A stretch of 33,553 nt of DNA, taken from NCBI RefSeq assembly GCF_001939115.1, contig NZ_MQTZ01000002.1, forward strand, positions 1-33,553, written 5' to 3'. The DNA is from Leptolyngbya sp. 'hensonii'. GTDB lineage: Bacteria > Cyanobacteriota > Cyanobacteriia > GCF-001939115. Shown here piece after piece: positions 15,979-31,135 of the stretch; positions within the stretch are counted from its first letter, which is position 1; every line of letters begins with the position of its first letter. The notes under the pieces are model-generated. The model searched no databases. It was not told the origin of the DNA and was given only the letters and a program-made list of their open reading frames with translations. A program made the translations under genes and the position numbers.

Positions 15979-17592
15979 TTAATTTTCAACATTAGGCTCC
16001 TTCAGCTCTAGCTTCAGGAATACCGGCTGGGGATCACTCAACGCTTGCCCTGCGGGTAACATTCCCCAAGTGGAATGGTTCCTGAATAACGGTGGCAGTG
16101 TCTTATCTTCCAGATCGACAGCAAAGCCCAGTTGCCGGTAGATAGCATTGCTGGTAGTTGGAATAATCGGTGAGAGGAAATAAGCGGCCAATCGGACTGC
16201 CTCTAAGACAGAATACAATACCCACTCACCTACCGCTTGCTGTCCTTGCTTGAGCAGAGTCCAGGGAGCCTGTTCATCCACAAATTTGTTGCCCGTTTTA
16301 ACCAGTCCCAAAACCTCTTCACAAACTTGATGGAAGGCCAAAACATTATAAGCCCGAATAATTCGATCCCCGAGACCTAGCCCGATCTGTTTCAATGGAT
16401 TATCGATGCTGATATCCAGTTCCACAAAGGCGGGAACCTGGCCATTGCAGTACTTATGGGCCAGTTTTAGAATTCGGTTTAAGAGATTACCCAGATCGTT
16501 AGCCAGATCGGCATTCACAATATTGACAAAGCGGATGGCGCTGAAATCTCCATCCCGGCCAAACTCAATTTCTTTCAGCAAATAGTACCGAATAGCGTCA
16601 GAACCATAGTGCTCAATCAGTTCAAATGGGTCGATCGTATTGCCCAGACTCTTCCCCATTTTTTGACCATCTTTGGTTAAGAATCCATGACCAAACACCT
16701 GTTGCGGCAGCGGCAAGTCAGCAGACATTAACATAGCAGGCCAATATACCGCATGGAAGCGCAGAATGTCCTTGCCAATCAGGTGCAGGTTAATCGGCCA
16801 CCAGCGAGCCAGTGCTTGATCCAATCGGGGATCACTCTCCTCATCCAGGAGGGCTGTGACATAACCCAGCAACGCATCAAACCAGACATACAGGGTATGC
16901 CCGGGATCAACGGGCACTGGAAACCCCCAATCCAGATTGACTCGGGAAATTGAAAAATCCTTTAATCCCTGACTAACAAAGCTGAGCACCTCATTCCGGC
17001 GGATCTCAGGTTGAATGAAGTCCGGTTGATCCTGATACAGGGCCTCCAGTTGATCCTGATATTTGGAAAGCCGGAAGAAGTAGTTTTGCTCATCGCGCCA
17101 TTCTGCCTCCCGATTCGTGTGAATCGCACAGCGGTGGCCCGCCAGAAGTTCTCGTTCCTCTTTAAACTCCTCGCAGGAGACACAGTACCAGCCCTGTTGT
17201 TGACTGAGGTAAATATCTCCCTGTTCCCAAACCCGGGTAAAAAATTCTTTAACAATGGCTTCGTGCCGAGGAGTGGAGGTGCGACTGAAGCGATCGTACT
17301 GAATATTCAATTTCTGCCAGAGCGCCTTGAACCCGGCTGCCACCTCATCACAGTGTGCCTGGGGAGATAGCCCTCGACTTTCAGCCGTTCGCTGAATCTT
17401 TTGACCATGTTCATCGGTGCCCGTGATTAACAACACAGACTTACCCTGAAGTCGGTAGAAACGGGTAATTGCATCGGCAGCGATCGTCGTGTAGGCGCTC
17501 CCAATGTGGGGTAAATCATTGACGTAGTAAAGAGGGGTTGTAACAGCAAACCTGTCTTTGTTTGCGTTTTCACAATTTTCTGATGAGTTCAT
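15979..17592 (-). CDS. metG: Methionyl-tRNA synthetase
   Basis: This class I aminoacyl-tRNA synthetase charges tRNA-Met. It has 537 residues with the HIGH-type motif PHIGSAY (28-34), the TGTDEHGQKI block (57-66), a zinc knuckle made of Cys137, Cys140, Cys155 and probably His158, and KMGKS (311-315) as the KMSKS loop. The anticodon-binding helical domain follows, without the C-terminal tRNA-binding extension found in some bacteria. Start ATG at 17592 leaves a short 15-residue leader before the Rossmann fold. It is the first gene of the metG-NYN-lptC cluster. Confidence 0.96.
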   Translation of the reverse strand: MNSSENCENANKDRFAVTTPLYYVNDLPHIGSAYTTIAADAITRFYRLQGKSVLLITGTDEHGQKIQRTAESRGLSPQAHCDEVAAGFKALWQKLNIQYDRFSRTSTPRHEAIVKEFFTRVWEQGDIYLSQQQGWYCVSCEEFKEERELLAGHRCAIHTNREAEWRDEQNYFFRLSKYQDQLEALYQDQPDFIQPEIRRNEVLSFVSQGLKDFSISRVNLDWGFPVPVDPGHTLYVWFDALLGYVTALLDEESDPRLDQALARWWPINLHLIGKDILRFHAVYWPAMLMSADLPLPQQVFGHGFLTKDGQKMGKSLGNTIDPFELIEHYGSDAIRYYLLKEIEFGRDGDFSAIRFVNIVNADLANDLGNLLNRILKLAHKYCNGQVPAFVELDISIDNPLKQIGLGLGDRIIRAYNVLAFHQVCEEVLGLVKTGNKFVDEQAPWTLLKQGQQAVGEWVLYSVLEAVRLAAYFLSPIIPTTSNAIYRQLGFAVDLEDKTLPPLFRNHSTWGMLPAGQALSDPQPVFLKLELKEPNVEN

Positions 17593-18656: not shown

Positions 18657-19382
18657 ATGCCCTCGGACACCTCTTTGCAACTTTCTCACTGGCTCCTTGC
18701 CGCCACCGGAACACGCCTGTTTCTCTGTCATGAGAATCGCATTCCTGCGGCAGGGCCTCTACTGGTGATCAGCAATCATCGAAGTTTTATGGATGCCCCC
18801 TTGTTAATGACTGCGATTGGGCGTCCGATTCGATTTGCTTGCCATCACTACATGGGGCAGGTACCGATCTTGAAAGAGATTGTCGTGGAGAAGTTGGGCT
18901 GCTTTCCCCTGGCTTCTCTGGAAAATCGGCAGCGCAACTTTTTCCAGCAAGCCGCTCAACTCCTGCAAGCACAGCAGGCAGTTGGGGTGTTTCCGGAGGG
19001 GGCAGAGCCCATGCTCCATTTGACCAGGCCAAATCAGGTAGGAGACTTCCAGCGGGGATTTGCCCATCTGGCTTTACGGGCTGCTGTTCAAGATTTGGCC
19101 ATTTTGCCGATCGCTATTGCTGTGACAGAAGAAGAGCTTCTGTCCTCCTTTCCCGTCCGCTGGCTGAGCTTATTCGATCCTTCAGAACCCCTGTTTATTC
19201 AGGATGGCTGGCATCCAATGGTGGTTTACAAACGAGTTCAGGTCCTGATTGGGAAACCTTTCTGGATCAAGTCTTCTCTACAAAAGGACTATCAAGGAAA
19301 GGATGCCAGAACATTGGTCACCGATCTAACAGAATATTGTCGCTCGGAAGTTTGTAACTTGATTGCCCAAGGCTATTACTAA
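18657..19382 (+). CDS. Lysophospholipid acyltransferase-like protein (PlsC/LPLAT family)
   Basis: This family transfers acyl chains onto glycerolipids or related alcohols at the membrane. The product has 241 residues with the catalytic NHRSFMD (40-46, the NHX4D motif) and the FPEG motif (112-115) that binds the acceptor phosphate in PlsC enzymes. No strong membrane segment is seen. The ATG at 18657 lacks a close ribosome-binding site, but the family-like sequence starts here. The gene is 6 bp from an alpha/beta hydrolase gene; the same two activities are fused in plant phytyl ester synthases and in Synechocystis Slr2103. It is probably a paralogue rather than the housekeeping PlsC. Confidence 0.88.
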   Translation: MPSDTSLQLSHWLLAATGTRLFLCHENRIPAAGPLLVISNHRSFMDAPLLMTAIGRPIRFACHHYMGQVPILKEIVVEKLGCFPLASLENRQRNFFQQAAQLLQAQQAVGVFPEGAEPMLHLTRPNQVGDFQRGFAHLALRAAVQDLAILPIAIAVTEEELLSSFPVRWLSLFDPSEPLFIQDGWHPMVVYKRVQVLIGKPFWIKSSLQKDYQGKDARTLVTDLTEYCRSEVCNLIAQGYY

Positions 19383-19388
19383 CGGAAC

Positions 19389-20189
19389 ATGCTACCGCTG
19401 AAGAATGAAGTTTGTTTCCTGGCCCCTGAGACCCTGAGACCTGACTATCCCCTGTTTGTGTTTCTACCGGGAATGGATGGCACAGGGCAATTATTAAGAC
19501 CCCAAACGATTGGGTTAGAAGCTGCTTTCGATGTTCGTTGTTTATCCATTCCAGCCGATGATGTGATGAGCTGGGATGGGTTGACAGAAAGTGTCCTTCG
19601 TTTAGTGAAGGTGGAACTGAGCCAGAAGCCTGCCGGATTACCGGTTTACCTGAGCGGGGAGTCCTTTGGAGGATGTCTGGCTCTGAAATTGATCTTGAAG
19701 GCTCCAGAATTATTTGATCGTCTGATCTTGATTAATCCCGCTTCTTCTTTCAGTCGCAGATTTTTGACCCACTGGGGATCACAAATCGTGCCGCTGTTCC
19801 CAGAACCTTTCTTCAAAATGGCCTCGATCGGCTTCCTGACCCTTCTGGCTTCCCTGGAGCGGATGAAGGCAGACGATCGGGAAGAGTTGATCAAAATCAC
19901 CCAACTTGTGCCTCAAAAAACATCGGTCTGGCGTATGGCGCTCCTGCGGGAGTTTTATATCAATCCAGAGCGCTTGCGCCATATCTGCCAACCGACCCTG
20001 ATTATTGCCAGTCTCCACGATCGTCTTCTCCCATCTCTGGAAGAGGCCCGATATCTGGTTGGTAACCTGCCCACGGCCCAGGTTGCTGTCTTGCCAGACA
20101 GCGGCCACGCCTGTCTTTTGGAAGCAGACGTTAACCTTTACGAGATCCTGAAAGCCCAGGACTTCCTCCATCAGGCTGTTTCAGTTTAG
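19389..20189 (+). CDS. Alpha/beta hydrolase, phytyl-ester-synthase type
   Basis: The 266-residue hydrolase has LPGMDGTG (26-33) as the oxyanion-side loop, nucleophile Ser92 in GESFGG, a late Asp in SLHDRLLPS and the catalytic His in PDSGHACLLE. The blocks FLPGMDGTG and GESFGGCLAL match what I recall of the N-terminal half of plant PES1/PES2, which move fatty acids onto phytol or diacylglycerol. The downstream partner domain in those proteins is an LPLAT acyltransferase, here encoded by the gene immediately upstream with a 6-bp gap. It is likely cotranscribed and functionally coupled. The substrate (phytol, plastoquinol, diacylglycerol or other) is not decided by sequence. Confidence 0.85.
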   Translation: MLPLKNEVCFLAPETLRPDYPLFVFLPGMDGTGQLLRPQTIGLEAAFDVRCLSIPADDVMSWDGLTESVLRLVKVELSQKPAGLPVYLSGESFGGCLALKLILKAPELFDRLILINPASSFSRRFLTHWGSQIVPLFPEPFFKMASIGFLTLLASLERMKADDREELIKITQLVPQKTSVWRMALLREFYINPERLRHICQPTLIIASLHDRLLPSLEEARYLVGNLPTAQVAVLPDSGHACLLEADVNLYEILKAQDFLHQAVSV

Positions 20190-20322: not shown

Positions 20323-20796
20323 TTAGGCGTGAGATTCAAGGGTTGTAATGATCATTTCCAGGTAGGAGCGGGTAAGACCACTGCTAATCGCAGGGAGCGC
20401 ACTGTTGATGGCATCTTGTAAATAGCGATAGGCTGCCGTGCAGTGAGTCGTTTTTTTGTGCGCCATCAGAATGGTGTCTAACCAGGACATCATCTGCTCT
20501 TTGAAGAAAACCTCATCATCCCGCAAGATTGACAGGGCAACGTAGCGCAGAACCTCAGTCATGTCATACTTACACCGCTGACCATGGCTCTGGATTAACT
20601 CCGGATAGGTCTGGGCCAGATGCCGCAGCGCCTGTAAAACCAATTTGTCACTGAGGTCTCGTAATTGTTGATATGTTGCCAGACGAGTGGAATAGGTTTG
20701 AAGGTATCGCTCCAGGGGTTCGAGACCCCTCGCATCCAGATACTGACCGTCTGCCTCCAGGATTTTCTTTTCCAACTGCTGGTTAAATGTATGCAT
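20323..20796 (-). CDS. Phycobiliprotein-like (phycobilisome family) protein
   Basis: The 157-residue all-helical product resembles the globin-like phycobiliprotein family (PF00502). The segment GQRCKYDMTEVLRYVALSIL matches the chromophore region of allophycocyanin/phycocyanin, with a Cys and an Asp three residues later as in KCXRD-type bilin sites. It is therefore a likely bilin binder, though divergent from ApcA/B/D/F and CpcA/B. The start was set at the ATG at 20796: the 26 codons upstream look unrelated, and this gives the usual family length. It stands alone, away from any phycobilisome operon, which suggests a regulatory or accessory role rather than bulk light harvesting. Confidence 0.72.
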   Translation of the reverse strand: MHTFNQQLEKKILEADGQYLDARGLEPLERYLQTYSTRLATYQQLRDLSDKLVLQALRHLAQTYPELIQSHGQRCKYDMTEVLRYVALSILRDDEVFFKEQMMSWLDTILMAHKKTTHCTAAYRYLQDAINSALPAISSGLTRSYLEMIITTLESHA

Positions 20797-21020
20797 AAAT
20801 TTGCACGATGGATAACTTGGGTGACTGTTGTCAGCTTGCCCGGACAAAAAAAATTGCTCAACAAGCTGATGCATTTCTTAACGCGAAACCCGCACATAAC
20901 TTAATGATCCCCGGATTTGGCCCTCCATCAGCCCAAGACTCCAATCAAAAAACTGACACATGGGACACATTTTATGAAGTAATTCAATGTAGGATGAAGA
21001 AGTGTTAGGAGTGAGTAAAA

Positions 21021-27980: not shown

Positions 27981-29492
27981 TTAATTTTCTGTTACATTCA
28001 CATCGGGTCCAAAGTACTGGGGGGTAAAGCTGCCATGTAATCCGTAGGGAATGTGATGTTTTAAGCGCAAGCGGGCGATCGGTCCCAGTTCCAAATCACG
28101 ACCATCCAGGATCACCAGCTCAGAGCGATTGTGGGCCGCATTGTACATCAGGGAAAAGACCCAACCATCGTCTTCAGCGGTGCTATGGGGTCGGGGGACA
28201 AACAGGGGCTCACCAGCAAATCCCCGAGGAGCCATGCTCCATACCTGTCGGACTCCCGTTTCCAGGTCCAGTTTCAGGATGGCCTGCAGGGGAGCATTGC
28301 CCTGGGGTTGATGGGCCGCTCCCGTGAAAACATAGCGATAGGGACGGCCCACCCGATCGGGATGAATGGTCGGAAACTCACAGCAGCGACTTTCCAGAAG
28401 TTCCTGCTGGACTGTCCCTCTGGTCGGGTCCAGGGTAAAACGCCAGAGTTGCCCTTCCGGTAAAGCCGTGAAATCTGTCTGTCGGTAGTCTGCCTGGGGT
28501 TCCAGGGCCGGGAAAGAGGCATAACAGATGGAATCGACCACCACCTGGTGCCCCTGCTCAAAGGCATTGGCATGGTGGAAGACAAATCCGGCCTTCGTTT
28601 CCAGAATCCGCATCGAAGCCCCGGCCCCTGCATGGCGGGGAATCAGAAGCATGCGGGTGGGCCGATCAGCCTGGAAGGTCATGCATTCCCCAGCAGCCCG
28701 CAGCCCCAGTGCAAAAGGCAGAGGATTAAATCGCATCGGATTTTGGAAAAAGATGCAGTAGTTGGGGGTAATGGCAAAGTCGTGCATGAAGGCAAAACCG
28801 GGGACAGCATGGTCATGCTGCTGCACGATCGTGCCGCTTTGATCCAACTCATAGATCGTGATTGTCGTAGAACGACCAGGGCGAGTTGAAAAATTGACCA
28901 GATGGGGAGCCCCCTGATCCCACACACAGTTGGGATCGATGCGGGGATGGGCGGAAAAAGCCGTGCCACGCTGCAAGACTCCATCAAAATAGTCCTGCCC
29001 CAGGGTGTCCAGAGTTCTGGGGTCGAGCCGATAAGGAGCCGCCGCTTCCCAGAGAGCCAGGAGTTTACGGCCCCAGTAAAGCACATTGGTATTGGCAATA
29101 TGCTTCAGTTTGAAGTCAAAAGCATTGGCCAGCCAGCCTCCTGGCTTCTGAGTGCCAAATACTCCTCGATACAGAATCTTCCCTGCCGCCTGTTCGGCCA
29201 GGAACCCCTCCGTGCGAACGAAGCGATTGCGGAAATGGGCTTTTCCCTGGGTAAAGGCAATCCTGCAAATCAGACCATCCCCGTCAAAAGGATGGTGGAT
29301 TCGCTGCCCCTTCACATCCAGTAGACCGGGACCATTGCGGAACAGTGTCCCCTGCAACTCTGGCGGAATCTCTCCCTCGATCTGATCAATCCAGTAGTCA
29401 AACTCCTGAGGCTGGGACCGATATCCCTTTTCCCAATCCTGATAATCGAAGGATGAAGATGATTTGTCTGACAGCAATTGACTGTTTGGCAT
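27981..29492 (-). CDS. Carotenoid cleavage oxygenase (apocarotenoid 15,15'-oxygenase type)
   Basis: This non-heme iron enzyme cleaves carotenoids or apocarotenoids to retinal-type products. It has 503 residues and a beta-propeller fold. The four iron-binding His are in place: His182 (SAHPR), His237 (FMHDFAIT), His306 or 307 (FHHANAF) and His486 (YGLHGSF). These are nearly the positions I recall for Synechocystis ACO (183, 238, 304, 484). The FRNGPGLLD motif at 51-59 and a typical near-C-terminal HGSF are also present. Cleavage position and substrate are inferred from the close match. No retinal-binding protein lies within the window. Confidence 0.93.
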   Translation of the reverse strand: MPNSQLLSDKSSSSFDYQDWEKGYRSQPQEFDYWIDQIEGEIPPELQGTLFRNGPGLLDVKGQRIHHPFDGDGLICRIAFTQGKAHFRNRFVRTEGFLAEQAAGKILYRGVFGTQKPGGWLANAFDFKLKHIANTNVLYWGRKLLALWEAAAPYRLDPRTLDTLGQDYFDGVLQRGTAFSAHPRIDPNCVWDQGAPHLVNFSTRPGRSTTITIYELDQSGTIVQQHDHAVPGFAFMHDFAITPNYCIFFQNPMRFNPLPFALGLRAAGECMTFQADRPTRMLLIPRHAGAGASMRILETKAGFVFHHANAFEQGHQVVVDSICYASFPALEPQADYRQTDFTALPEGQLWRFTLDPTRGTVQQELLESRCCEFPTIHPDRVGRPYRYVFTGAAHQPQGNAPLQAILKLDLETGVRQVWSMAPRGFAGEPLFVPRPHSTAEDDGWVFSLMYNAAHNRSELVILDGRDLELGPIARLRLKHHIPYGLHGSFTPQYFGPDVNVTEN

Positions 29493-29600: not shown

Positions 29601-31079
29601 TCATTCTACCGACTCTTCCAGGCGTTCTCTGAGCACGGGTTGGGACACCAGTTCGGGCATTAAGTCAGGTAAAAAAGGTTGTCCCAGATGCTTGGGACTG
29701 GACAGATCAAGCTCCAGGACGGGTTGTAAGACTGGAAGCTGATGTTCACCCTGGGGCAATCCGTCCTCGGATTGCTCTGCCCCAGCCGCAGGGAGCCAGC
29801 CCAGCAAGGGAAGGGGCAGCAGGGTACTGAGGTTTGTAATCACCACCAGGAGCCAGAGGGCATTGAAGTTGTGCTCATTGATGCCAAACCAGTGCATCAT
29901 CACTGCACCCAGTTCATAGGAAACCAGTCCGGCCAGGTTGTTCACCGACATCAGCAGGGCAAACAGGGTAGCTTCCACCCCTGGGGGACAGAGGCGGGCC
30001 GCCAGCACCAGCACCGGCATGTAGGCAATCTGGCCCATCACGGTCAGAATCAGGCTATCCCCCAAACTAAACCAGCGATCGTCGATGCCCAGGGTACGAT
30101 TCGTATGGGTGACCAGGAGCAGCATTGACATGCCCAGAACCGCAGAAACCACCATAGACCAGCCAAAAACTTTGCGGAAGGAAACGGCCCGAAAGAATCG
30201 CTGAAACATCCAAATCCCCAGCAAAGAAGCAATGCTAGTCACCAACCGTACTCGACCCAAAAATTCGGGTTCGAAGCCCAATTCATTGGTAGTGAAAAAG
30301 AAAAAAGCTGAATCTGCTGTGGGGGTTGCTTGCCAGAGGAAAAGAAAAACAGTGGGCATCCAGATCGATTTCTGTGTCAGTGCCTGTCGCAACTGTTTGA
30401 ATTGATGGGTTACGGCAGACCAATCTGGACGATGCTCCAACCTGGTTTCGACAATCAACCAGGCCACTAGAGACACAATCAGGGGAAAGGACGCCGTAAT
30501 TCCAAATACAGTCCGGGTACTGAAGTGCTCCAGCAGGAGACCACTGAAATAAGCCGTAATCAGGCTGCCCGCAGCCGAGGCTCCCCAGCAGAGGGATTGC
30601 AAAGACCCGGCGTCACTGACCGACTCCTTCCGGGCTCGTTCGACTACCAGAGAATCGACAATCACATCGCTGACAGCGACCGAAAGGGAACTGAGGGAAA
30701 TCGCCAGGGTGGCAGCCCAGGCAGTATGGACGATCGTTGCCAGAGCCACCCAGGACATTGCCCCCAGCAAGCCTGACAGGATCAGGTAGGGGCGGCGGCG
30801 GTAGCCTAGAATCGGCAGCCCATCTGAAATAAAGCCGAACAGAGGCTTAACCATCCAGGGGAGGGCAACAATCCCAAACAGGGCCGAAACCTGGGCAGGT
30901 CCAAGACTGAGTTCATCTTTCAGGAAAAAGCTGACCGCCAGGCGGGACAGCCCCAGGATCCCCTGCACAAAGTAGACCAGTAGAATTGCTATCAGCTCAG
31001 TATTCAGCTCATGGCCGAAGAAAGTCTTTTGACTGAGAGATTCCTTGAGCCGATTCAGAGCTGACGAAGAAACAATCAT
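29601..31079 (-). CDS. Folate/biopterin (BT1) family MFS transporter
   Basis: This major-facilitator carrier resembles the BT1 family, which moves folates, biopterin or related compounds. It has about twelve hydrophobic helices over 492 residues. Family blocks include PWMVKPLFGFISDGLPILGYRRRPYL and the DVIVDSLVVERAR region. The C-terminal cytoplasmic tail (about 430-492) is long and acidic. ATG at 31079 was preferred to an in-frame TTG at 31085. It lies divergent from the PanE-like gene, with an inverted repeat in the shared 83-bp promoter region. The substrate is inferred only from family. Confidence 0.88.
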   Translation of the reverse strand: MIVSSSALNRLKESLSQKTFFGHELNTELIAILLVYFVQGILGLSRLAVSFFLKDELSLGPAQVSALFGIVALPWMVKPLFGFISDGLPILGYRRRPYLILSGLLGAMSWVALATIVHTAWAATLAISLSSLSVAVSDVIVDSLVVERARKESVSDAGSLQSLCWGASAAGSLITAYFSGLLLEHFSTRTVFGITASFPLIVSLVAWLIVETRLEHRPDWSAVTHQFKQLRQALTQKSIWMPTVFLFLWQATPTADSAFFFFTTNELGFEPEFLGRVRLVTSIASLLGIWMFQRFFRAVSFRKVFGWSMVVSAVLGMSMLLLVTHTNRTLGIDDRWFSLGDSLILTVMGQIAYMPVLVLAARLCPPGVEATLFALLMSVNNLAGLVSYELGAVMMHWFGINEHNFNALWLLVVITNLSTLLPLPLLGWLPAAGAEQSEDGLPQGEHQLPVLQPVLELDLSSPKHLGQPFLPDLMPELVSQPVLRERLEESVE

Positions 31080-31135
31080 TGACAATTCTTAATGAATCAA
31101 TGCTTTCTATGATACCTGTCTTAACTGAAAGTGTC

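Follow-up and report, generated by a model that had tools for sequence, protein, structure and literature searches.

Two adjacent genes within a 33,553-nucleotide stretch of the Leptolyngbya sp. 'hensonii' genome (hereafter the window) encode an acyltransferase with the PlsC fold (A) and an alpha/beta-hydrolase (H), and together constitute a widespread, old two-gene unit that is not peculiar to this genome. The explanation that we favour, tentatively and on correlational grounds, is that A acylates plastoquinol and H is its partner esterase, the two forming an old cyanobacterial lipid-ester module.

Both genes are intact open reading frames with ATG starts on the + strand, A at 18657-19382 (241 aa) and H at 19389-20189 (266 aa), and the ORF calls match the positions and the 6-bp spacing given by the first-pass annotation. 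In A, the NHX4D catalytic motif (N40-D46; 18774-18794, +) reads NHRSFMD with N40, H41 and D46 invariant in 22/22 aligned proteins, and the FPEG motif (F112-G115; 18990-19001, +) is likewise invariant in all 22 (profile A2, 22 of 37 A sequences used). H carries the LPGMDGTG block (L26-G33; 19464-19487, +), where L26, P27, G28, D30 and G31 are invariant in 25/25 aligned proteins (profile A3, 25 of 58 H sequences used), and the GESFGG nucleophile elbow (G90-G95, with Ser92; 19656-19673, +) within GESFGGCLAL. Residues G90, E91, S92, F93 and G94 are invariant throughout the same alignment, as are D211 (20019-20021, +) and H240 (20106-20108, +), which from their position in the fold are the probable acid and base of the catalytic triad. 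All four motifs named in the first reading are therefore present, with Pfam in agreement, and the invariance of the catalytic residues of A and H places them beyond chance. Divergent from the pair lies metG (methionyl-tRNA synthetase; 15979-17592, -; PF09334, E = 1.1e-109), which marks the conserved locus and probably takes no part in the pair's function. Just downstream of the pair, the window encodes a divergent phycobilisome-type protein of 183 aa (20323-20874, -; PF00502, E = 1.7e-17), and further on a carotenoid-oxygenase-type protein (27981-29492, -; PF03055/RPE65, E = 5e-153) beside a BT1-type transporter (29601-31085). Rfam and tRNA scans of the window gave no matches.

A scores above the Pfam gathering threshold of PF01553 (E = 8.9e-21, 74.5 bits against 23) with no match to any DAGAT model, and its NHX4D motif and PlsC-like fold place it in the same superfamily. 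The AlphaFold2 model (pLDDT 92.1 for H, 94.3 for A) of the acyltransferase has Thermotoga PlsC as its nearest solved structure (5kym, E = 1.7e-9), followed by GPAT1 and PatA; a sequence search of the PDB with A returned no match. The nearest NCBIfam models are lysophospholipid or acylglycerol-phosphate acyltransferases, every one of them under its equivalog cut-off, and against TIGR00530 A reaches 52.9 bits where 102.95 are required, so that it is not recovered as a canonical PlsC (1-acylglycerol-3-phosphate acyltransferase). A thus shares its Pfam family and fold with the PlsC/AGPAT lysophosphatidate acyltransferases, whereas it differs from them in forming a distinct group, in scoring below those cut-offs and in being linked to a hydrolase gene. 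In the tree, which has long branches, 32 A proteins form one group (98/94) apart from the Slr2103-type multifunctional acyltransferases (MFAT) and from the C-terminal half of plant phytyl ester synthase (PES); PlsC-like paralogs of the Gloeobacterales also fall outside it, their rows filling just 17-18% of the columns. We conclude that A is a distinct acyltransferase family of the PF01553/PlsC fold, other than the PES-type acyltransferase.

The hydrolase matches general alpha/beta-hydrolase models (PF12146, E = 1.4e-9; PF00561, E = 8.8e-9), and a Foldseek search with its model matched many hydrolases, the best match being uninformative. Its fold and intact Ser-Asp-His triad (S92, D211, H240; roles inferred from the fold) are those of a serine alpha/beta-hydrolase. 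A closer kinship emerges with plant PES, for which the query was an approximate sequence of 579 aa rather than a database entry, its C-terminal half scoring PF03982 at E = 2.4e-9. When the N-terminal half of this approximate PES was searched against 244 genomes of the phylum, the H gene was the best match in 74/74 H-bearing genomes, identity reaching 35% over 265 residues (E = 9e-26), and comparison of the H profile with the PES N-half is colinear over 237 columns (E = 9e-28). As the best matches are sequences that had no part in composing the query, a bias of the query towards the window is unlikely. By sequence, H and the N-terminal half of plant PES1/PES2 (ELT family) are accordingly assigned to one hydrolase family, as the first-pass annotation had held. 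In the H tree the PES N-half sits among the H proteins, without a settled placement among them, and two other Gloeobacter hydrolases lie outside (97/90), a third having too few columns to be placed.

The counterpart claims, that A is the acyltransferase half of PES and the pair its unfused state, do not survive. The C-terminal half of the approximate PES, searched against the same 244 genomes, matches only the MFAT family and never A; by profile comparison it meets MFAT at E = 9.5e-10 and A at E = 0.08 (0.7% probability), and in the tree it joins MFAT (97/83), again on long branches. Slr2103, cited in the earlier reading as a fused hydrolase-acyltransferase, is in fact unfused. MFAT proteins are relatives of the PES C-half with HNGG and PGG(A/G/V)xD motifs (for Slr2103 itself, HNGG and GGAGD are given in PMC10171310), whereas A has NHRSFMD and FPEG in place of the HNGG and GG(A)xD motifs and stands in its separate group. 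The window genome has both types. Its MFAT-type gene, P0003, is far from the pair (L001:1375-2229 (-), contig C20) and encodes HNGG and PGGARD motifs; it scores slightly under the Pfam DAGAT cut-off and is found by the MFAT profile at E = 5e-156, being itself one of the profile's 13 rows. The searches and profile comparison uphold the PES link for H, the phylogeny against PES and Slr2103 that had been proposed as a check sets A apart from both PES and MFAT, and the pair is not an unfused PES, since A is not of the PES type and the genome carries the PES-type acyltransferase separately as P0003.

A full-length fused PES in the same genome, which had been named beforehand as grounds for regarding the pair as unrelated to PES, was absent from the window genome and from the 244 phylum genomes in searches with the approximate PES; only separate ORFs were matched, in the window genome two of them on two contigs with no others. 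Open frames of ~504 aa in some Gloeobacterales were considered as PES-like fusions and rejected, being upstream read-through of the H frame where it overlaps A. Measured against the ELT family, the pair has the PES-type hydrolase and lacks both the DAGAT-type (PF03982) domain and the single polypeptide: plant PES1/PES2 is one protein with the hydrolase preceding a DAGAT-type acyltransferase, whereas here there are two genes in the reverse order and the acyltransferase is PF01553.

To count the families, A was accepted at E below 1e-58, so that eight genomes of the phylum whose best matches were weak (E 2e-16 to 8e-27, 27-32% identity) were not counted. MFAT was counted with a profile of 13 sequences (A1), which replaced counts from the Pfam DAGAT model because that model missed two genomes (G095 and G111); the count leaves out weak-only matches (E ~1e-7 to 1e-17) in seven genomes, of which six lie outside the class and the seventh is G005, as well as weak second copies, and treats G070 as positive despite its broken MFAT frame. 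Among the 244 phylum genomes, H occurs in 74, A in 43 and a strong MFAT in 74. All 43 A-bearing genomes have H, and in 37 of them A stands directly before H, the matched stretches being separated by 2 to 630 bp. Were A and H unrelated neighbours brought together by chance and engaged in separate tasks, one might expect them to part, and H does occur without A in 31/74 genomes while the two lie apart in 6/43; that A is never without H, and that the adjacency ranges from the Gloeobacterales, where the frames overlap, to Nostoc-like genomes, makes such an explanation highly improbable.

The 74 H genomes divide into 34 with A and MFAT, nine with A only, 31 with MFAT only and none with neither. The empty class compares with an expectation of 3.8 genomes (one-sided Fisher p = 0.005 by genome), and after collapsing to 45 genera the association persists at p = 0.026, although the lineages are not independent, and for that reason we regard the association between A and MFAT among H genomes as suggestive, not strong. 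A positional link between H and MFAT was rejected, their coordinates being far apart in the genomes compared by eye (no count was made). Four genomes have MFAT matches that are fragmented or contain an internal stop (G070, G099, G118 and G157), and all four have A; MFAT may be decaying in genomes that retain A, or the matches may overrun the true start. A second, distant DGAT2-like family, with frames of 335-404 aa matching the MFAT profile at E = 1e-5 to 1e-8, was seen in ten genomes, all with A (G005, G019, G030, G042, G062, G101, G167, G191, G197 and G199), and possibly represents a further class of type-2 DGAT-like protein.

Sixty-one neighbourhoods from 58 genomes were read, and 39 of them contain a metG-like ORF, with adjoining NYN-domain and LptC-domain genes recurring. 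At nine loci (L101-L109) A is missing and H still faces metG at a distance of 323-932 bp, and in one of these (L103) a 35-residue relic of A spanning the NHX4D region persists between metG and H (profile positions 15-49, E = 2e-6). Conversely, in three genomes (G157, G095 and G091) A remains by metG and H has moved elsewhere. The gaps left in place, the relic and the displaced H indicate an ancestral metG / A-H arrangement from which A has disappeared in several lineages. One A gene (L080) was missed by the ORF-based reading of its neighbourhood and found by the genome search.

Gloeobacter is a deep-branching cyanobacterial lineage without thylakoids. The Gloeobacterales were reached with a probe for the GLIC ion channel that agrees with PDB Glr4197: Aphanocapsa lilacina HA4352-LM1 carries a GLIC 79% identical to the probe and was taken for a Gloeobacter relative, and the nine genomes of its order were searched for A, H and MFAT. 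A was found in 9/9 (best E per genome 1e-68 or better) and MFAT in 0/9 at E = 1e-3, with the same profile that finds 74 class genomes. A and H lie side by side at each of the nine loci, 8/9 being the safe count given the possibly mixed genome G252. In genome G249, which we take to be G. violaceus PCC 7421, the start of H lies within the end of A (junction ATGCTGA); its GLIC is 91% identical to the probe over 351 columns, ~20 of which are gap in the probe. All nine genomes also encode a separate PlsC-like protein (second matches, E = 1e-12 to 1e-16). Two copies of A occur in genome G252 (contigs C40 and C49; L149 and L172). The copy beside H is of the thylakoid-bearing type and groups outside the Gloeobacterales in the tree, whereas the other is of the Gloeobacter type, contains an internal stop and has no H within its 3.2-kb locus; this genome may be mixed, through contamination or transfer.

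These gene contents can be set against lipid data. G. violaceus is described in PMC12048435 as lacking MFAT and making acyl-PQH with no acyl-PQC, and as having very low levels of TAG and phytyl ester; its acyl-plastoquinol enzyme is stated there to be in the course of isolation, not yet isolated as of 2025. Within the limited collection of literature searched, we found neither a gene for the Gloeobacter acyl-plastoquinol nor an account of the A-H pair. The lipid profile bears on the functions first proposed for the pair, namely synthesis of phytyl, plastoquinone or triacylglycerol esters. As Gloeobacter has the pair and, in that source, very little phytyl ester or TAG, a role in either of these is not favoured; the plastoquinol part is the one that we retain, on the distribution of the genes and the Gloeobacter lipids. 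It likewise weighs on the possibility that the pair acts as a PES in two pieces, producing phytyl esters or triacylglycerol with A replacing the PES acyltransferase. The family of H and the complementary distribution of A and MFAT, as of interchangeable partners of H, would suit such an arrangement, but A is not of the PES acyltransferase type, the protein that is of that type sits elsewhere in the window genome and both candidate products are scarce in G. violaceus, where the pair occurs with MFAT absent, and so we consider it unlikely.

If A makes acyl-PQH, then Synechocystis 6803 and Synechococcus 7002 should be without A, because deletion of slr2103 in the former or of A0918 in the latter abolishes acyl-PQH (PMC12048435). 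In agreement with this expectation, G093 and G076, whose PixD proteins share 93% and 90% identity with the Synechocystis 6803 protein, have H and MFAT with no A, and G058 and G083, whose GlbN proteins share 97% and 95% identity with Synechococcus 7002 GlbN, have MFAT with neither A nor H. Genome G036, in which KaiA is 86% identical to the S. elongatus protein, is devoid of A, H and MFAT alike, and S. elongatus 7942 is reported to contain little or no acyl-PQH (PMC12048435). The four lineages thus fit a rule whereby either A or MFAT suffices for acyl-PQH and acyl-PQC needs MFAT; three of the four stand by relatives rather than by the strains themselves, and only Gloeobacter speaks positively for A.

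Under the mechanism that we tentatively favour, A would esterify plastoquinol with a fatty acid, probably delivered as acyl-ACP, giving acylplastoquinol with a narrow range of acceptors; H, as a serine esterase, would cleave such esters or supply acyl groups. The pair would thereby make and turn over the ester, and lineages with MFAT could dispense with A. We infer what A acylates, in which direction H works and that the two act jointly from the company A keeps with H, its occurrence throughout the Gloeobacterales where MFAT is missing, the empty class of H genomes lacking both acyltransferases, the absence of A from relatives of Synechocystis 6803, Synechococcus 7002 and S. elongatus, and the kinship of H with the PES N-half. 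In Synechocystis-like genomes H lies directly upstream of hemA, and by gene order it would presumably be slr1807. An acylplastoquinol lipase (APL), which cleaves acylplastoquinol and regenerates plastoquinol, the activity expected of H, is known in Synechocystis, where it helps photosystem II to recover (Jimbo et al. 2024, as cited in PMC11973298), and is consistent with an esterase partner. Slr2103 and A0918 offer the parallel for A, being like it cyanobacterial acyltransferases, with acyl-plastoquinol as the proposed common product. H is not essential for synthesis of the ester, since slr2103 by itself yields acylplastoquinol in S. elongatus and Picosynechococcus-like genomes have no H. Against the plastoquinol function stand the other PlsC-like acyltransferases of Gloeobacter and the fold that A shares with PlsC, a lysophosphatidate acyltransferase, the 34 H genomes in which A and MFAT occur together and so are not simple alternatives, and the weakness of the association at genus level among lineages that are not independent.

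The main competing explanation, somewhat doubtful in our estimation, is membrane-lipid remodelling, with H deacylating a glycerolipid and A reacylating it as a lysophospholipid acyltransferase. The PF01553 assignment, Thermotoga PlsC as nearest structure and the sub-cut-off NCBIfam matches to lysophospholipid or acylglycerol-phosphate acyltransferases all agree with it, and a hydrolase gene next door suits a deacylation-reacylation cycle. Remodelling leaves unexplained, however, why MFAT constantly accompanies H where A is absent (31/31) and why H is kin to the hydrolase half of PES rather than to a phospholipase, and all nine Gloeobacterales genomes already encode a PlsC-like protein apart from A.

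Returning to the plastoquinol function, its value is that it names, for the acyl-plastoquinol enzyme of Gloeobacter, a specific and testable candidate gene with a conserved partner. This candidate is found where the product arises independently of MFAT, and it is missing from relatives of the strains that lose the product on deletion of MFAT. It is possible, although we hold it with some reserve, that A is the enzyme by which Gloeobacter acylates plastoquinol without MFAT and H a dedicated acylplastoquinol esterase, so that two acyltransferase subfamilies would serve one ester, the A-H pair being the more ancient and MFAT able to replace it; plant PES would then be an H-type hydrolase joined to an MFAT-type acyltransferase, both possibly cyanobacterial in origin. 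If so, acylation of a photosynthetic electron carrier independent of MFAT would be present in the deepest lineage examined, and H would be a free-standing cyanobacterial counterpart of the hydrolase half of plant PES, the role of which could be tested separately.
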